Assembly (NCBI RefSeq): GCF_002736105.1
Contig: NZ_CP024123.1
Coordinates: forward strand, 240,001-304,000
DNA from: Solibacillus sp. R5-41
Lineage (GTDB): Bacteria > Bacillota > Bacilli > Bacillales_A > Planococcaceae
Reading direction: 5' to 3'
DNA length: 64,000 nt
Shown here: positions 3,807-49,574 of the stretch, piece by piece
How positions within the stretch are numbered: the stretch's first letter is position 1
Layout of the letters: each line of letters starts with the position of its first letter
Notes under the pieces: generated by a model
What the model was told of the DNA's origin: nothing
Seen by the model: the letters and a program-made list of their open reading frames with translations, nothing else
Databases searched by the model: none
Translations under genes and position numbers: made by a program

Positions 3807-3953
3807 TTACAAATACATAAGAGAGGACTAGGTTTCATTTAATTGATTAATGTTTTCCAAAAGAAAAAGTTTAAATTCGTGCAATCTACTATTCTAAAAT
3901 TAACAATAAATGTCGATATAAAGGACAATGATATTATATTCAAAATCTGGATG

Positions 3954-3975
3954 CAATTACGTCGAGGCGTAATTG
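3954..3975. repeat. Dispersed palindrome, copy 1
   Basis: CAATTACG (3954-3961) and CGTAATTG (3968-3975) flank a six-base centre. The same palindrome core recurs near 19990 and 49622, always outside genes. It looks like a small dispersed intergenic repeat. Confidence 0.55.
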
Positions 3976-4017
3976 ATCCAATACATAGAGAAACTGAAGA
4001 GGAGATGTTTTAACTAG

Positions 4018-6027
4018 ATGAATCAATCTAAAAAATTGCTTGCCGCCATGCTAGCAATCCCTGCGACGGTAATTGTTGCTGGGCAAGTGCATGCGGAGGA
4101 AGTAACATCCACATTTGAAATTAATAATAGTTGTGTAGGCGCTTCAAATTCCGGAGAACGCCTAAGTTTACAGGCAAAAGAAAGCGAAGACGCAAATGCA
4201 ATTCAAAAAGCCATTGATGATGTAGATTGCTTAATCGAAGAACTTAATAATGATTCAACAAGGGGAAAAATTTTAGCTGCTCAAGCTGAATATTACAAAT
4301 TGCCAGAAGCTTCGCGTAAATTAGTAAAAGATTATAAAAAAACCGAAAACCTATTGGCTATTCTTGATGAGAAGGAGGCCCGTTTAGTAGAGGAAAAGAT
4401 TAATGCTTTGAATGATGAATCTACTCCTGTAGCAATTAAAGCAGTGCGTAATGCGTATGAGGCATTAAATGAAAATGCGGTAAAGTTAGTGTCTGAAAAG
4501 ATGTTAAAGTTGCTTGTAACTTATGAAACCATTATGAATAAGCAGGTTGAGCAAGCGGAAAAAGAGGCACAGGTAATTATTGATCGTATTAATCGCATTA
4601 CAAATAGCTATACAGAAGCTCAAATTAAAGACGTTCGACTTGCGTATAATAAGCTGAGCGAATTGGCGAAAAGTTATGTAACGAACATACAAAAATTAAT
4701 TAATGAGGAAGCCTATATTTTATATCAAAATTCAGTTGTCAAAGAAGCAAAATTACAAGCAGCCGCATTTGATGCGTACATGGCGAACATTACTCGGAAT
4801 TCGTCAACAGCAGAAATTGCGAAGGCGCGCGCGTATTACAACTCATTATCCTATGAGGCAAAGAGACAGGTTAAAATGTACGAAAAGTTGCGTCGACTTG
4901 AAACGATGTGGAATGATCCGGATTATTTAGGATTAATTTTCACGTACTACCCAGATTATATTCATGCGATAAAACCAGGGGGCATTGAAGTAGAGAAGCC
5001 GGTATATGATCCATTGTATATTCCAGATGATTCAAATTCCGACGAATATGTACCGCCGAATACTACGTGGTCGCCATATGAGGAAATGACGTATTATAAC
5101 GGTCGATACACAGCGACGATTACCTCCTCACAAATGACCAATGTGGCAGATAAGACGATGATGCTGAAGGCTGGAGATATTGAAATATTAATCCCGACAG
5201 CGGATATTAAAGGGACATCTGCAGCAATTGGTGTGTCAATGTCGACGAATAATAATAGATTAGACATTAGTTTCACAGAAGGTCATACAGCGAAAGCATT
5301 TTCGAGCGTTGTTGAAATTCGTATTCCGATGCGTTTACTAGGCGGAAATGCATCAATGGCTGTGCAACGCGTCGTTTATAATGGGACATCATCAGCAAGC
5401 TATAAAATCGAAGGTTCTAATTATGTGATTCGAACGAAAACAGGTGGGACTTTTACTGCGGGAACAAGTAAAACATCGTATTCGGACTTAACGGCATCGA
5501 GTTCAAGTACGACGGGTATACGCGAACTCGCAACGCGCGGTATTACATATCCGACGGCAGGGAAAGCGGTTATTCCAAATGAAAGTGTGACACGTGCAGA
5601 TGTCGCAACATTACTTGCAAAAGCAATTGACATTTCAAGCACACAGTCTACAAAATATAAAGATTTAGGGAATACAGTATCAACAAGCCAAGCGCAAGGC
5701 TTATTAGAGGCAGGCATTATGAGTGGTGTGACAACGCAGCAATTCGACCCAAATATAGCGATAACACGTCAGGAAGCAGCAATCATCATTGCCAATATGT
5801 ATCGCCACTTAAATCAAGATTTATCATTAGCTTATAATGAACTAAAAACAAAATTTGTGGATATTTCTGACTTATCTTATGAAGCACGTCAAAGTATTGC
5901 GATTTTAGAGCTGTTCGGTGTTGTGGATGGCACAGCTTCAAATCAATTTAACCCACAACAACAGTTAACGAGAGCACAGTTCGCAGAAATGCTTTACAGT
6001 GCATTAACAGCTATTGGGTATTTATAA
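4018..6027 (+). CDS. SLH-anchored helical-repeat surface protein
   Basis: A 669-residue exported protein. A signal peptide ends at about residue 26 ('GQVHA|EE'). Residues about 55-300 hold four diverged helical repeats of roughly 65-75 residues, each with a pattern like 'AIKAVRNAYEALNENAVKLV'. A central beta-rich region (about 350-500) resembles domains of other S-layer-associated proteins. Three SLH motifs close the protein (about 505-669: 'VIPNESVTRADVATLLAKA', 'FDPNIAITRQEAAIIIANM', 'FNPQQQLTRAQFAEMLYSA'). It is probably held on the wall through secondary polymers. The start follows an AGAGGAG site at a rather long distance (about 13 bases). No ligand or enzyme activity can be read from the sequence. 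Confidence 0.85.
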   Translation: MNQSKKLLAAMLAIPATVIVAGQVHAEEVTSTFEINNSCVGASNSGERLSLQAKESEDANAIQKAIDDVDCLIEELNNDSTRGKILAAQAEYYKLPEASRKLVKDYKKTENLLAILDEKEARLVEEKINALNDESTPVAIKAVRNAYEALNENAVKLVSEKMLKLLVTYETIMNKQVEQAEKEAQVIIDRINRITNSYTEAQIKDVRLAYNKLSELAKSYVTNIQKLINEEAYILYQNSVVKEAKLQAAAFDAYMANITRNSSTAEIAKARAYYNSLSYEAKRQVKMYEKLRRLETMWNDPDYLGLIFTYYPDYIHAIKPGGIEVEKPVYDPLYIPDDSNSDEYVPPNTTWSPYEEMTYYNGRYTATITSSQMTNVADKTMMLKAGDIEILIPTADIKGTSAAIGVSMSTNNNRLDISFTEGHTAKAFSSVVEIRIPMRLLGGNASMAVQRVVYNGTSSASYKIEGSNYVIRTKTGGTFTAGTSKTSYSDLTASSSSTTGIRELATRGITYPTAGKAVIPNESVTRADVATLLAKAIDISSTQSTKYKDLGNTVSTSQAQGLLEAGIMSGVTTQQFDPNIAITRQEAAIIIANMYRHLNQDLSLAYNELKTKFVDISDLSYEARQSIAILELFGVVDGTASNQFNPQQQLTRAQFAEMLYSALTAIGYL

Positions 6028-6036
6028 TTGATCAAC

Positions 6037-6066
6037 AAAGCACGGCGTATTGAGCGCTGTGCTTTT
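6037..6066 (+). terminator. Terminator after SLH protein
   Basis: AAAGCACGGCG and GCGCTGTGCTTTT pair around a short loop, just after the SLH gene, with a short T tract. Confidence 0.7.
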
Positions 6067-38944: not shown

Positions 38945-40336
38945 TTATTCTGCATTTGGGTAAATCATTGTTTTCGGATCAACATAACGGTCAAATTCCT
39001 CTTCTGTTAATAATCCCGATTGAATTGCAGCTTCTTTTAACGTCAAACCTTCTTTATGGGCTGTTTTTGCAATTTTGGCCGCATTTTCATAGCCGATATA
39101 TGGATTTAAAGCCGTAACAAGCATTAATGAATTTTTTAAATTGGCATCGAGCACTTCCGTATTCGGTTCGATTCCAATCGCACAATGATCATTGAAAGAC
39201 TTCATCGCATCGGCCAATAAGCGTGCAGATTGTAAGAAATTATAGATAATTACAGGCTTGAATACGTTTAGTTCAAAATTTCCTTGAGAGGCAGCAAATG
39301 CAATGGTCGCATCATTCCCGATAACTTGTGTTACGACCATTGTTAGTGCCTCACTTTGTGTCGGATTTACTTTTCCTGGCATGATAGAAGAGCCAGGCTC
39401 GTTTTCGGGAATTGTAATTTCTCCAATACCAGATCGAGGTCCACTTGCAAGCCAGCGCACGTCATTGGCGATTTTCATTAAGTCTGCAGCCAAAGCTTTT
39501 AACGCCCCATGTGCCGCAACAATTTCGTCATGACTTGTGAGTGCGTGAAATTTATTTTCAGCTGAAGTGAAATTTTTGCCTGTCAACGCACTAATTTCAG
39601 CGGCGGTACGGTCACCAAATTCAGGGTGTGCATTAATTCCCGTACCGACAGCTGTTCCACCGATTGCGAGTTCCTTCATAAATTGCGTGTTCACCATAAT
39701 AATTTTTTCGCATTTTTTAAGCATATGATGCCAGCCGCTAATTTCTTGACCAAGCGTTAACGGAGTAGCATCTTGTAAATGGGTGCGCCCGATTTTAATA
39801 ATATCTTTAAAGTTGATTGATTTTTCTTTTAATGTTGTCTGTAAAAGGTTCAAGCGTGGCATTAAATAATTTTCTACAATATCAACAGCCGCAATGTGAA
39901 GGGCAGTTGGGAATGTATCGTTAGAACTTTGCGATTTATTAACATCATCATTTGGATGAACTTGCTCGCTGGAACCTTGCGCCACTAATTTTTCATTCGC
40001 TAAATATGCAATCGCTTCGTTCACATTCATGTTCGTTTGAGTACCGCTACCAGTTTGCCAAACAACAAGAGGGAAGTGATCATCCCATTTTCCTGCGATG
40101 ATTTCATTCGCCGCTTCCACGATTGCATCCGCTTTAATGTTCGAAAGCTTGCCTAATTTTTGATTTGCTAATGCAGCAGATTTTTTTAAAATGGCCATAG
40201 CGCGGATTACTTCAATCGGCATTTTTTCTATTCCGATTTGGAAATTTTCTTTACTGCGTTGTGTTTGAGCACCCCAAATTTTATCTGCTGGAACGTTAAC
40301 GTTACCTAAAGTGTCCTTTTCAATACGATATTCCAA
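38945..40336 (-). CDS. fumC: Class II fumarase
   Basis: A 463-residue, oxygen-stable fumarase that interconverts fumarate and L-malate in the citric acid cycle. The family signature '[19 protein letters not shown]' (about 317-335) and the active-site segments '[19 protein letters not shown]' (about 96-114) and '[20 protein letters not shown]' (about 184-203) are intact. AAAGGAG precedes the ATG. It is monocistronic, and a putative Fur-controlled small RNA is encoded just upstream on the same strand. Confidence 0.97.
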
Positions 40337-40527: not shown

Positions 40528-40529
40528 TT

Positions 40530-40562
40530 GATAATGATAATCTTTATCAATTAGAATGTCAA
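40530..40562 (-). promoter_or_regulatory. Promoter with Fur box
   Basis: On the minus strand, TTGACA (40562-40557) and TATCAT (40539-40534) are exactly 17 bases apart. GATAATGATAATCTTTATC (40530-40548) overlaps the -10 and matches the classical 19-base Fur box at 18 positions. Iron-bound Fur should block this promoter. Confidence 0.8.
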
Positions 40563-45445: not shown

Positions 45446-46627
45446 TTATGAAAGGGTTTCAATTGTTCTAAGATTAATGCGCTGACTGCGTGCATACCCA
45501 ATGATTAAAACAACGAGCGCAAATGCCACAATGCTTCCTGCGAAAACAAGTGGCGCTTTGTACGAATTAAAATACGTTTCTAAGCGCCCCGCAAGAAGGG
45601 GACCGATAATTTGTCCGAGCGCATAAAATGTTGTGAGCATCGATACAACATAAGCACTTTGCTTTGGAAATAGCTGACGCCCATAGCCAGTTGTCATCGT
45701 AACGAGCCCAACAAATGTGAACCCATATAAAAAGGCAGATAAAAGTACACTCCAAACCGATTGAGAAAGAACTGGTAATAAAATACCAATTACTTGAAGA
45801 GCATAGGCAATCACCATCATTGAAATCGTAGAAAAACGCGACATGAGATGCATCCATAATGGAGCTGAAGGGATTGCTGCTAGTCCAACTATGACCCAGC
45901 TATAACCGGCATACGCTCGTAATGGTTCAATATTATAAATAATATCCACTAAAAATGTACCGGTAATAATATAGCCAAGCCCTTCAAAGCCATAAGCGAC
46001 AATAAGCCATGGCATAAAACCACGCCAAATATTTGTATCATCCGATTTTGTAAGCTTTTCACCATTTTGCACGTGGATATTGCGCCATAATAAAAGTGTC
46101 GTTAGTAAAAATAGGAGGGATAAGATGCCGAGTCCGATCCACGTACCTTGCCATGCAAAGGAAGCTTCTATGTAGGGAACAAATAATCCAGAAATGGCAA
46201 TGCCAAGGCCGATACCACTAAATACATAGCCACTCCAACGCGTTAATAAATTCGATGCTAAATAATCCATGACAATACTCGACGTTAATACGAAAATAAA
46301 GCCCCCTGTTGCACCTGCAATAAAGCGTAAAACAATCCATATACCATAGGAATCAATCCAACCCATTATTAAAATTGAGATAATATTGATCATGACATTC
46401 GCAATCACAAAACGCTTTTTATTCCGTAAAATAAAGCCTGCACCTAACGCACCAACAAAGTAACCGACATAGTTACTAGAAGCGAGCCAGCCCCCTTGTG
46501 AAAAGCTTAGCCCTTCATCAACGCGCATAAACGGTAAGATTGGCGTAAAAGCAAAACGGCTAATGCCCATTGCTATGACTAAAAATAAAATTCCCCCACA
46601 AATAACCCCTGCATGTTGCCGATTCAT
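45446..46627 (-). CDS. YbfB/YjiJ-family MFS transporter
   Basis: A 393-residue, twelve-helix protein. The N-terminal segment 'GISRFAFTPILPFMRVDEGL' and 'GWLASSNYVGYFVGALGAGF' are characteristic of the YbfB/YjiJ family, which lacks an assigned substrate. ATG 46627 has AAGGGGG at good distance; the in-frame TTG 46633 is too close to it. It has its own terminator and is separate from the MerR unit. Confidence 0.82.
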   Translation of the reverse strand: MNRQHAGVICGGILFLVIAMGISRFAFTPILPFMRVDEGLSFSQGGWLASSNYVGYFVGALGAGFILRNKKRFVIANVMINIISILIMGWIDSYGIWIVLRFIAGATGGFIFVLTSSIVMDYLASNLLTRWSGYVFSGIGLGIAISGLFVPYIEASFAWQGTWIGLGILSLLFLLTTLLLWRNIHVQNGEKLTKSDDTNIWRGFMPWLIVAYGFEGLGYIITGTFLVDIIYNIEPLRAYAGYSWVIVGLAAIPSAPLWMHLMSRFSTISMMVIAYALQVIGILLPVLSQSVWSVLLSAFLYGFTFVGLVTMTTGYGRQLFPKQSAYVVSMLTTFYALGQIIGPLLAGRLETYFNSYKAPLVFAGSIVAFALVVLIIGYARSQRINLRTIETLS

Positions 46628-46882
46628 GAACAAGCCCCCTTAAAATTCAGATTCTCATTAAACTTCATTGTAACATTTTGAAATTTCAGATTAAAAGGGT
46701 TGTTCTAAAATAAATGTTTGGGAACTTAATATGGAAAAAATAGTTTAAATAAAAAATCAAAATAAAGAATCAGAATTCCTTTGCTTAAGATTATTCTGTG
46801 AGAACGTTTTTGTATTTTACTAATAAAATTCTATGAAAGGAAAGTAAAGCAATGCCTCAAGATTCCCTTCACGTTTGCTATA

Positions 46883-46927
46883 AAAAAATAGTAGTACAAA
46901 CCATGGCCTTGGTCCGTACTACTTTTG
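46883..46927. terminator. Bidirectional terminator in 46634-47104
   Basis: GTAGTAC (46891-46897) and GTACTAC (46916-46922) are flanked by A and T tracts and form a terminator usable in both directions. On the minus strand it would end the Cys-repeat gene transcript, about 180 bases past its stop codon. The rest of this 470-base gap shows nothing else I can support. Confidence 0.7.
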
Positions 46928-47104
46928 TTAGTGTTTAAAAAAATAATACTAATTCTTCAACAATTCCATTAATGTATATAGAATTCAGCAAAGTTTGGAA
47001 ACACATAATTTAGTGTTATATCAAAGCCAATACATTGATAACGACCCGAAGTGTACTTGCGAATGGTAATTTTTTTGTTTCAGAAGCGTTTATTTTGCGT
47101 AGTG

Positions 47105-48316
47105 TTAGTCATTACATCGACAATTATAATGCCCACAACTATAGCAACAACGACAGCTTGTATAACCACATACTGTACAACATTGACATGGATGTGTTCT
47201 GCATTCTTTACAACATTGGCACGGGTAGCTTTTGCACTCATAGCAGCACTGACAAGGATGGCTCTGGCATTGTATACAACATTGACAAGGATAGCTTTTG
47301 CACTCATAGCAGCACTGACAAGGATGATTCTGGCATTGTATACAACATTGACAAGGATAGCTTTTGCACTCATAGCAACACTGACAAGGATGATTCTGGC
47401 ATTGTATACAACATTGACACGGGTGGTTCTTGCACTCATAGCAGCACTGACAAGGATGATTCCTGCATTGTGTACAACATTGACACGGGTAACTCTTACA
47501 TTCGTAACAGCATTGGCAATTTGATTCAAATTCGCCACAACCGCTACATCTCGACGTATATTTTTCATCCTCATAGTCTCGTTCTATACTATTACGTCCT
47601 AATGCATCATCTGCTTCGTCAATTTTCCATTGAGGATCTTCATGCTTTCTATAAAAGTAAGCTTGATCTTGTTTTTCATGACGATGTTGTTCATCAAGGC
47701 GACGATGTTCATCAAGTTGACGTTGTTCATCAAGGCGACGTTGTTCATCAAGCTGACGTTGTTCATCAAGGCGACGTTGTTCATCAAGTTGACGTTGTTC
47801 ATCAAGCTGACGTTGTTCATCAAGGCGACGTTGTTCATCAAGTTGATGCTGTTTTACAAGTCGACGCTCTTCTTCGGCATTTTTTTCAGCAAGCATTTTT
47901 TCAGATATGAGTTTATTATGTGCAAATAGATCTTCCTCTTCTTTTTTCGATACTTCAGCTAATAATTTGTTAAGATTATTCGAAAAAAATTTTTTTATAG
48001 AATCAACAAATGCATGTGCATTAAAAGAATCGCCATTCAATTTATTTGGATTCTTTTCGATATACCATACACTTAGCGCACCTAAAGTTAAGGAAATGTT
48101 TAATGTAAATAAACCAAATGCAACATTGGCCCATACGCTTTTTTGTTTTAAATAGTGCATTGATAAAATAATTACGATAATGACAATAAGGCTATAAAAT
48201 GGGCTATGTGTTTCCGTAGAAATAAATACAGCCAAACCATAAATAATCCAATGAATTGGTTGCATTTCATTTTTGTACCAGTTTTCAAATATATTTTTAA
48301 TATGATCTATATTCAA
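47105..48316 (-). CDS. Membrane protein with LDEQ-repeat helix and 13 Cys-rich repeats
   Basis: A 403-residue protein of unknown family. Residues about 22-100 contain two to three transmembrane helices. Residues about 125-155 are highly charged. Then a hexapeptide (R-[RQ]-LDEQ) is repeated about ten times (about 155-215), forming a long charged helix. After a hydrophilic spacer, residues about 257-401 are thirteen units of mostly 11 residues with the pattern C-x2-C-x4-C-x-C (for example 'CYECKSYPCQC'), giving about 52 cysteines. This suggests metal or Fe-S binding, or dense disulfides if it faces outside. Translation starts at TTG 48316 behind GAGGGG. Confidence 0.8.
   Translation of the reverse strand: MNIDHIKNIFENWYKNEMQPIHWIIYGLAVFISTETHSPFYSLIVIIVIILSMHYLKQKSVWANVAFGLFTLNISLTLGALSVWYIEKNPNKLNGDSFNAHAFVDSIKKFFSNNLNKLLAEVSKKEEEDLFAHNKLISEKMLAEKNAEEERRLVKQHQLDEQRRLDEQRQLDEQRQLDEQRRLDEQRQLDEQRRLDEQRQLDEHRRLDEQHRHEKQDQAYFYRKHEDPQWKIDEADDALGRNSIERDYEDEKYTSRCSGCGEFESNCQCCYECKSYPCQCCTQCRNHPCQCCYECKNHPCQCCIQCQNHPCQCCYECKSYPCQCCIQCQNHPCQCCYECKSYPCQCCIQCQSHPCQCCYECKSYPCQCCKECRTHPCQCCTVCGYTSCRCCYSCGHYNCRCND
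47108..47548 (-). repeat. Tandem 33-bp repeats encoding the Cys-rich units
   Basis: About thirteen units of 33 bases, arranged in part as 66-base pairs that alternate 'CYECKSYPCQC' and 'CIQCQNHPCQC'. Units stay in frame, and central copies are nearly identical in DNA, so copy number may vary by slippage. Confidence 0.85.
47690..47852 (-). repeat. Tandem 18-bp repeats encoding LDEQ units
   Basis: About nine 18-base units read on plus as GTTGTTCATCAAG plus a variable part, coding for R-[RQ]-LDEQ. Near-identity between units predicts length polymorphism. Confidence 0.85.
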
Positions 48317-48345
48317 AATGATTATCCCCTCATTAATAAAATGAT

Positions 48346-48402
48346 TTATTTATTGTCTCTGAATGAAATATTTATAGGCTGTTCCTCATAGTAATTTTCC
48401 AT
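48346..48402 (-). CDS. 18-codon ORF upstream of the Cys-repeat gene
   Basis: ATG 48402 lies behind a strong AAAGGAGAAAA site and encodes 'MENYYEEQPINISFRDNK'. It stops 29 bases before the TTG start of the Cys-repeat gene. The good ribosome site and tight spacing suggest a translated leader or a tiny partner peptide. No known family. Confidence 0.45.
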   Translation of the reverse strand: MENYYEEQPINISFRDNK

Positions 48403-48547
48403 CTGATTTTTCTCCTTTAATAATAATATAAGTTTCCGTCAGTTATTTATATCCATTTATTTTACTTTATAGAAAAATTTGGTATATAGTAAAAACGGAC
48501 TATTATAAAATATAAAAAAGATGGATGTTCTATACTAAACTTCCAGG

Positions 48548-48913
48548 GCGGGTATCTTACGAGAAGGGAAAGCTGCATTTAAGTTTTATAAGTTACTGGA
48601 TAATGGAGCTGAAGAAGACCCAGGTCACAAAGCTATTGAAATTTTGCTGAAATATATGGAAGACCATTGCGGTAAATTAATTGTTATTGTAGCCGGTAAT
48701 GGTAATGTAGAAAAATGGAGTCTTTCTTAGATAACAATGAAGGCTGACGTCGCAGATTTTCACGACATTTAAATTTTGACGATTATCAACCACAGGAGTT
48801 AATTTAAATTAGTAACAATTTGTAAACAAAACCAATATGAGCTAGAAGCAGAACAGGAATTATTATTTCACTTTACTAACTTGTATCAACGACGTGACCA
48901 AAGAAGAGTGTGC
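48548..48913 (+). pseudogene. Decayed SpoVK/CbbX-like AAA+ ATPase
   Basis: Plus-strand frames encode 'DPGHKAIEILLKYMEDHCGK', then 'LIVIVAGNGNVEKW'. This matches the sensor-1 region of CbbX/SpoVK ATPases, where 'EAI..LLK.MED....L.VIVAGY' is typical. A stop follows, and beyond frameshifts the pieces 'NFDDYQPQEL' and 'YELEAEQELLFHFTNLYQRR' continue the same domain. The Walker motifs and the N-terminus are missing, so this is a relic. The rest of 48403-49139 shows no gene. It lies next to the Cys-repeat gene, on the opposite strand. Confidence 0.65.
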
Positions 48914-49139
48914 TAAAATTAAAAAATATTAAACTTAATTGAAGATTTAGCAATAAAATCAATTTAATAATGACAAAAAAAAGAATGGATTTTTCCCATT
49001 CCTTTTGCTGTTTCATTGCTAAGTAGAAAATAAAACAGAATTTCCTGTAATATAATTCACGAACAAAAAAGATCTTTATAATGATTTAGTGGTAGTAACC
49101 GAACCTAACATCAAATTCTAGAGTAGGTTAGTTAGAACT

Positions 49140-49574
49140 CTACCAAAAATTCGGTTTAACGACCATTAACCACAGTAAAATCCCCATTAAAAAAATATAT
49201 TTCCACGTTGCGGTTTTTATCATAGAAATAAATTTTTCTTTAACAAACCCATCTGATTTTGAATAGGTCATAGCGGGTTTAAATGCACGTGCCATAAAAA
49301 ATAAAGAAGCAAACATGACGATAATCGTGAGGAGCACCCATGAAGTTTTCCATGACCAGCTACCAAACCAAATAAGTAATAGTCCAGAGGGGACAACAAT
49401 ATGTCCACCATTTGCAATTGCTCGTAAAATGCCTTGTATGGATTGAATATAGCCGCTAACCTGATCAGAGGATGCGTCGTTCATTCGATTAAGTAAAGGG
49501 AAAATAGCGAATAAAGGTCCCATTGAAATAATGGCGCTAAAAATATGTGTGTATAATATAATTGTATAAAGCAT
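49140..49574 (-). CDS. DUF2269-family membrane protein
   Basis: A 144-residue protein with four hydrophobic helices. 'LYTHIFSAIISMGPLFAIFP' at the N-terminus, with a histidine in helix 1, and 'ANGGHIVVPSGLLLIWFGSW' match the DUF2269 pattern of small integral membrane proteins of unknown function. GTGAGG lies before the ATG. It is monocistronic. Confidence 0.75.
   Translation of the reverse strand: MLYTIILYTHIFSAIISMGPLFAIFPLLNRMNDASSDQVSGYIQSIQGILRAIANGGHIVVPSGLLLIWFGSWSWKTSWVLLTIIVMFASLFFMARAFKPAMTYSKSDGFVKEKFISMIKTATWKYIFLMGILLWLMVVKPNFW

Follow-up and report, generated by a model that had tools for sequence, protein, structure and literature searches.

The locus raises the question of what a membrane protein does with cysteines packed into its C-terminal end at a strict interval. 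The gene in question is present as a single copy in its own genome and lies on the minus strand of the window, by which we mean the whole stretch of 64,000 nucleotides that was analysed. Its start codon is TTG, and the open reading frame from 47105 to 48316 is unbroken. The gene and its parts are as follows:

47105-48316, minus strand: Cys-array gene, an intact 403-aa open reading frame with, from the N- to the C-terminus, membrane segments, a hexad helix and a Cys4 array
48317-48332, minus strand: ribosome-binding site GAGGGG, 9 nt 5' of the TTG, read from the sequence
48053-48259, minus strand: membrane segments, weak at residues 20-32 and stronger at residues 39-57 and 61-88 (hydropathy and AlphaFold2 helices)
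47681-47842, minus strand: nine LDEQRx hexads (residues 159-212), with an 18-bp tandem in the DNA
47510-47548, minus strand: cap unit CSGCGEFESNCQC (residues 257-269), 13 residues spaced C-x2-C-x6-C-x-C
47108-47548, minus strand: Cys array (residues 257-403), the cap CSGCGEFESNCQC followed by twelve 11-residue C-x2-C-x4-C-x-C units and then ND
46890-46923, minus strand: strong terminator-like hairpin of 14 pairs followed by ATTTTTTT, 3' of the Cys-array gene

The open reading frame bears out the architecture that a sequence-only reading of this DNA had proposed (membrane segments, an LDEQ hexad helix and an array with 52 cysteines), with the array measuring 147 residues. All 52 cysteines fall within residues 257-403 and none within residues 1-256, and the mean cysteine content of the other long open reading frames in the window is 0.68%. 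The same reading had counted thirteen repeats: there are indeed thirteen Cys4 groups, but only twelve are 11-residue units, the first being the 13-residue variant. The regular units, each exactly 11 residues long, abut one another over residues 270-401. The spacing C-x2-C-x4-C-x-C matched 12 times in the real protein; 20,000 composition-preserving shuffles averaged 2.0 matches and never exceeded 9. Tyr or His followed by Pro ([YH]-P) precedes the third cysteine in 10 of the 12 regular units, the final two (CTVCGYTSCRC and CYSCGHYNCRC) being without it. The DNA of the array repeats 5.1 times with a period of 66 bp, or two units, a higher-order pattern which shows that unit pairs were duplicated.

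The sequence-only reading had itself noted that its interpretation would fail if the real coding strand were the opposite one. We ran this test with Nei-Gojobori-type counts for each frame. Between the twelve units, pS was about 1.0 and pN 0.20-0.24 in the minus coding frame, and among the five A-type units the values were 0.97 and 0.03; in the remaining frames of both strands pN was near or above pS, save for one plus frame full of stops. Since pS far above pN together with an open frame was found in the minus frame only, opposite-strand coding was ruled out. All 48 cysteines of the twelve regular units are retained despite mixed codons (30 TGT and 18 TGC), in keeping with selection on cysteine. 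Because nearly all synonymous sites differ between units while every cysteine is kept, the array is, on these substitution counts, a selected protein repeat and no accident of recent DNA slippage.

The surroundings of the gene show how it may have reached this genome. Two further features are needed here:

46705-49140, no strand assigned: segment of about 2,436 bp without a counterpart in congeners, with the Cys-array gene and the AAA+ remnant inside
48549 to about 48933, plus strand: AAA+ remnant, the broken C-terminal AAA+ module of a beta-helix and double-AAA (SpoVK/CbbX-like) protein

In seven congeners (G062, G120, G144, G013, G032, G114 and G108) an MFS gene and a small membrane-protein gene adjoin with a gap of ~100-140 bp. 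In the window, 2.5 kb separates the MFS gene (45446-46633) from the small membrane-protein gene (49140-49574), which has a sub-threshold match to DUF2269. Homology with the closest congener, G062, ends at 46704 and resumes at 49141, leaving about 2,436 bp in the window versus 67 bp there, and in this comparison no target-site duplication was evident at the segment edges. The Cys-array gene looks acquired, loss from all congeners being the less simple reading of the same alignment. Other genera of the family have intact relatives of the AAA+ remnant, with a beta-helix and two AAA+ modules in 1162-1213 aa, and the best identity of the remnant to them is 63% over 39 residues. An AAA+ protein as partner of the Cys-array protein was considered and rejected: only in G166 does the AAA+ gene have a divergent neighbour with membrane segments and a charged helix, similarity to the window protein was not detected, and the pattern is unrepeated at other loci.

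An acquired segment with a decayed AAA+ remnant beside the gene, and a gene with no relatives in congeners, would also suit a by-product without a role, in which a species-specific orphan with slipped repeats is merely tolerated. The codons of the hexads, nearly identical from copy to copy, fit this as well, and because of this near identity the LDEQRx hexads look recently expanded. The Cys array behaves otherwise, its synonymous divergence and invariant cysteines arguing against recent slippage, and the open reading frame, ribosome-binding site and terminator are all intact. We therefore regard a gene without a role as very improbable.

Searches for relatives were made at increasing taxonomic depth. 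The whole protein gave low-complexity matches only in 15 congeners and 200 genomes of the family, those of the family at E<=0.001 being rejected as other low-complexity proteins or tandems, not homologues. The N-terminal domain alone gave nothing convincing in 261 genomes of the order (weak hydrophobic matches, best E 0.003). The two-unit pattern in 399 class and 398 phylum genomes, and a module profile in 398 genomes, returned the window's own genome only, and plasmids and cultured phages yielded no convincing match. The expectation that an 11-residue-repeat search across the order would uncover a family was thus disappointed, with no relatives in the 261 order genomes. For the same reason, the conservation of cysteines that had been predicted for homologues could be compared on distant modules only, there being no close homologues in that set. 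Since the searched sets yielded the Cys-array gene from one species only, its role may be minor or recent.

Two other kinds of repeat protein turned up in the family. In one genus, L002, L004-L007 and L013 encode membrane proteins whose charged helix is of the LEEQKK type and whose C-terminal domain is LysM-like; their helix resembles that of the window protein in style, whereas the ends are unrelated. In another genus, L003 (about 1500-1900) and L017 (about 1500) carry 33-bp tandems reading PCSCGYSSQRE in one frame, of which the other strand reads RRVTAGAWFPL, and L018 has such tandems too; the cysteine spacing differs from that in the window, and the tandems are possibly non-coding.

No family in Pfam, NCBIfam or PHROGs matches the array, and Pfam returned 0 families for it at E up to 1, which agrees with the earlier statement that no known family has this architecture. 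Nothing on this spacing motif came up in the literature search; the Cys repeat of rusticalin has a spacing different from that of the window unit (PMC6339383). Cys4 metal-binding repeats are of a known kind, and what is new here is the unit, the cap and the 13-fold membrane-tethered array.

Since the family searches were negative, look-alike modules are described here from collection-wide scans with degenerate patterns, in which many matches were discarded as poly-Cys low complexity; the resulting set comprises at least those listed. Abutting C-x2-C-x4-C-x-C pairs occur in open reading frames of viral contigs (L275, L346/L350, L348, two in L349, L571, L573 and L574) and in the bacterial L095 and L143. 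On the viral contigs, the abutting modules sit in 2-4 copies on unrelated proteins (RIIB-like, E2-like and small open reading frames). L275 encodes a 1080-aa protein with three units close to its end, and the product of 2177-3319 in L573 is a RIIB-like protein (phrog_609, E 1e-63) that bears Cys4 modules close to the C-terminus. In L349 the open reading frames 3921-4820 and 4820-6055 adjoin and both carry Cys4 arrays, with one weak UQ_con match below the cutoff (E 0.0083); both also have HPH...C, a stretch that recalls E2 enzymes. L573 and L349 thus share with the window protein the cap and/or the 11-residue modules, mostly near the C-terminus, but differ in their unrelated main domains and in having 2-4 units versus 13. 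The bacterial L095 (WRLD01000010.1) is a BspA-like protein of 2,402 aa from Defluviitaleaceae with 18 units; L088 and L401 have weaker repeats of other composition. Among those listed, the window protein has the longest abutting array.

The look-alikes were compared with the window array in several details. CPxCG or CxxCG knuckles (CPNCG, CPECG, CPDCG, CIQCG) are present in several related modules. The arrays of L348 and both of L349 open with a 13-residue C-x2-C-x6-C-x-C cap, for which the scan pattern did not ask, and the cap is absent from those of L275, L346 and L143; the viral contigs L462 and L494 have a cap plus a unit but were selected by a cap-containing pattern. In alignment A1, whose 14 rows (from the window, L095, L143, L275, L346, L348 and L349) were picked for this cysteine spacing, eight Cys columns over 22 residues are invariant, and the Pro before the third Cys is nearly so. 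A test profile built from eleven unit pairs, the window excluded, scored the window array at 25.7 bits for the best unit pair and 85.0 bits for the whole array. The maxima of 2,000 shuffles with Cys fixed were 24.7 and 42.8 bits, so that the real array stood above all of them, by a small margin for the best pair; it also outscored all of 2,000 full shuffles under the same profile. Because the window-free profile scores the array above every Cys-fixed shuffle, the similarity exceeds the cysteine spacing, mainly via [YH]-P. Short Cys motifs can converge, and the modules may be shared either by descent or because a short metal site arose independently more than once.

On which side of the membrane does the array lie? 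AlphaFold2 predicted a long continuous helix at residues 100-221, with the LDEQRx hexads inside (pLDDT up to 94), and predicted the linker between this helix and the Cys array poorly. It also drew a strand every 11 residues of the array, as in a beta-solenoid. We did not trust this solenoid: with the array alone only 1 of 5 models exceeded pLDDT 42, a Foldseek search with the array model found nothing at E<=0.001, and AlphaFold2 has been shown to produce spurious beta-solenoids when given perfect repeats (PMC11795689). The topology itself is ambiguous, as two strong membrane segments favour a cytoplasmic C-terminus, and three, by the positive-inside rule with KQK inside, favour an outside one. 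Exported proteins of Bacillota usually avoid cysteine. Because they rarely carry free Cys, we lean modestly towards a cytoplasmic C-terminus.

Were the C-terminus outside, as charges and hydropathy with three segments would have it, the helix could span towards the wall and disulfides could make the array a rigid surface rod. The BspA-like L095, probably secreted, carries the same units, in CxxCxxYPCxC arrays that partly abut as CC; unlike the window protein, it is repeat-rich, with Cys units set between other repeat domains and several spaced by extra residues. Such an extracellular disulfide-rich stalk is nonetheless unlikely: besides the avoidance of cysteine in exported Bacillota proteins, the related modules include at least one, that of the RIIB-like L573, on a phage protein that should stay inside the cell, and several related modules have zinc-knuckle CPxCG signatures.

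We propose instead, at what we judge an even chance, that this is a membrane-anchored protein whose charged helix presents thirteen tetrathiolate metal modules, forming a multivalent rod that is an amplified accessory tail. The membrane segments would anchor the protein, and the long charged helix would present the string of modules. In each module, two cysteines from C-x2-C and two from C-x-C would hold one closed-shell metal ion, Zn2+ in the first place, so that the module would be a minimal zinc-knuckle-like unit abutting its neighbour through Cys-Cys. Held at the membrane and stabilised by metal, the array would act as a multivalent binding rod that buffers thiophilic metals only incidentally, and it would be the amplified form of a tail borne in 2-4 copies by phage and other proteins. 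Four thiols per unit in close pairs, the CPxCG knuckles of related copies and the abutting units argue for tetrathiolate sites with Zn2+ as the most likely metal, and by this analogy we favour Zn over Cu(I) and Fe in the modules. The units are thus most likely tetrathiolate, zinc-knuckle-like metal-binding units, amplified here. Metal binding by the Cys4 units, already suggested by the sequence-only reading, remains plausible and is strengthened by the viral modules with a CPxCG signature, the metal itself being assigned by analogy. The argument is one of analogy because no solved structure or annotated family was found to contain the module.

In zinc-knuckle and zinc-ribbon half-sites, too, a second Cys pair comes after C-x2-C(G), and several related modules have exact CPxCG; the window unit differs in that its second pair, C-x-C, follows four residues on and its units abut without a linker. 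Neither the window protein nor the related open reading frames scanned gave a match to a zinc-finger or zinc-ribbon family in Pfam, and the modules of the latter match no Pfam or PHROGs family. The CXC (Tesmin/TSO1) Zn3Cys9 domains also have closely spaced Cys pairs, with other spacing than the window array and no Pfam match to it. Their likeness makes bridged clusters in the array conceivable, and the Cys-Cys junctions could permit them. It is possible, though doubtful, that the unit and cap form an undescribed metal-binding repeat, a modular tail passed on chiefly by phages that has become a 13-unit membrane-tethered rod here, perhaps with bridged clusters. If so, profile libraries have missed a short, portable Cys4 module found on phage RIIB-like, E2-like and bacterial surface proteins, and a bacterium has turned it into a membrane-held poly-metal rod. 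At 150 residues, and with a metal stoichiometry that is directly measurable, the window array offers a ready test object.

The high cysteine content would also fit a membrane-tethered, metallothionein-like sponge that acts close to the membrane as a buffer for Cu(I), Cd or Zn or as a means of detoxifying them. The 52 thiols in 147 residues are strictly conserved, and such a density (about 35% Cys, with no hydrophobic core expected) is typical of metallothioneins. The window array differs from these in its strict 11-residue period, membrane anchor, helix arm and His/Tyr-Pro before the third Cys, and metallothionein profiles in Pfam and NCBIfam do not match the protein. Since unrelated proteins bear the unit in 2-4 copies, a use ill suited to bulk storage, a structural or binding module is preferred over a sponge, and we consider the sponge rather unlikely. 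The context lends no support to the metal-sponge role suggested earlier: among the flanking genes examined no metal exporter or regulator was identified, and Zur and Fur boxes are at chance level. At the start codon lies a Fur-like site with 3 mismatches (48313-48327), of a class with 14 found and 12.9 expected in the window, and for Zur sites 5 were found and 5.3 expected; a metal-responsive promoter was therefore dropped. An RNA element was sought and not found. Elsewhere in the window, two overlapping Fur/PerR-box-like sites at 40529-40549, TGATAATGATAATCT with 2 mismatches and TGATAATCTTTATCA with 1 mismatch, precede a fumarase-like gene on the minus strand (38945-40336) by ~190 bp.
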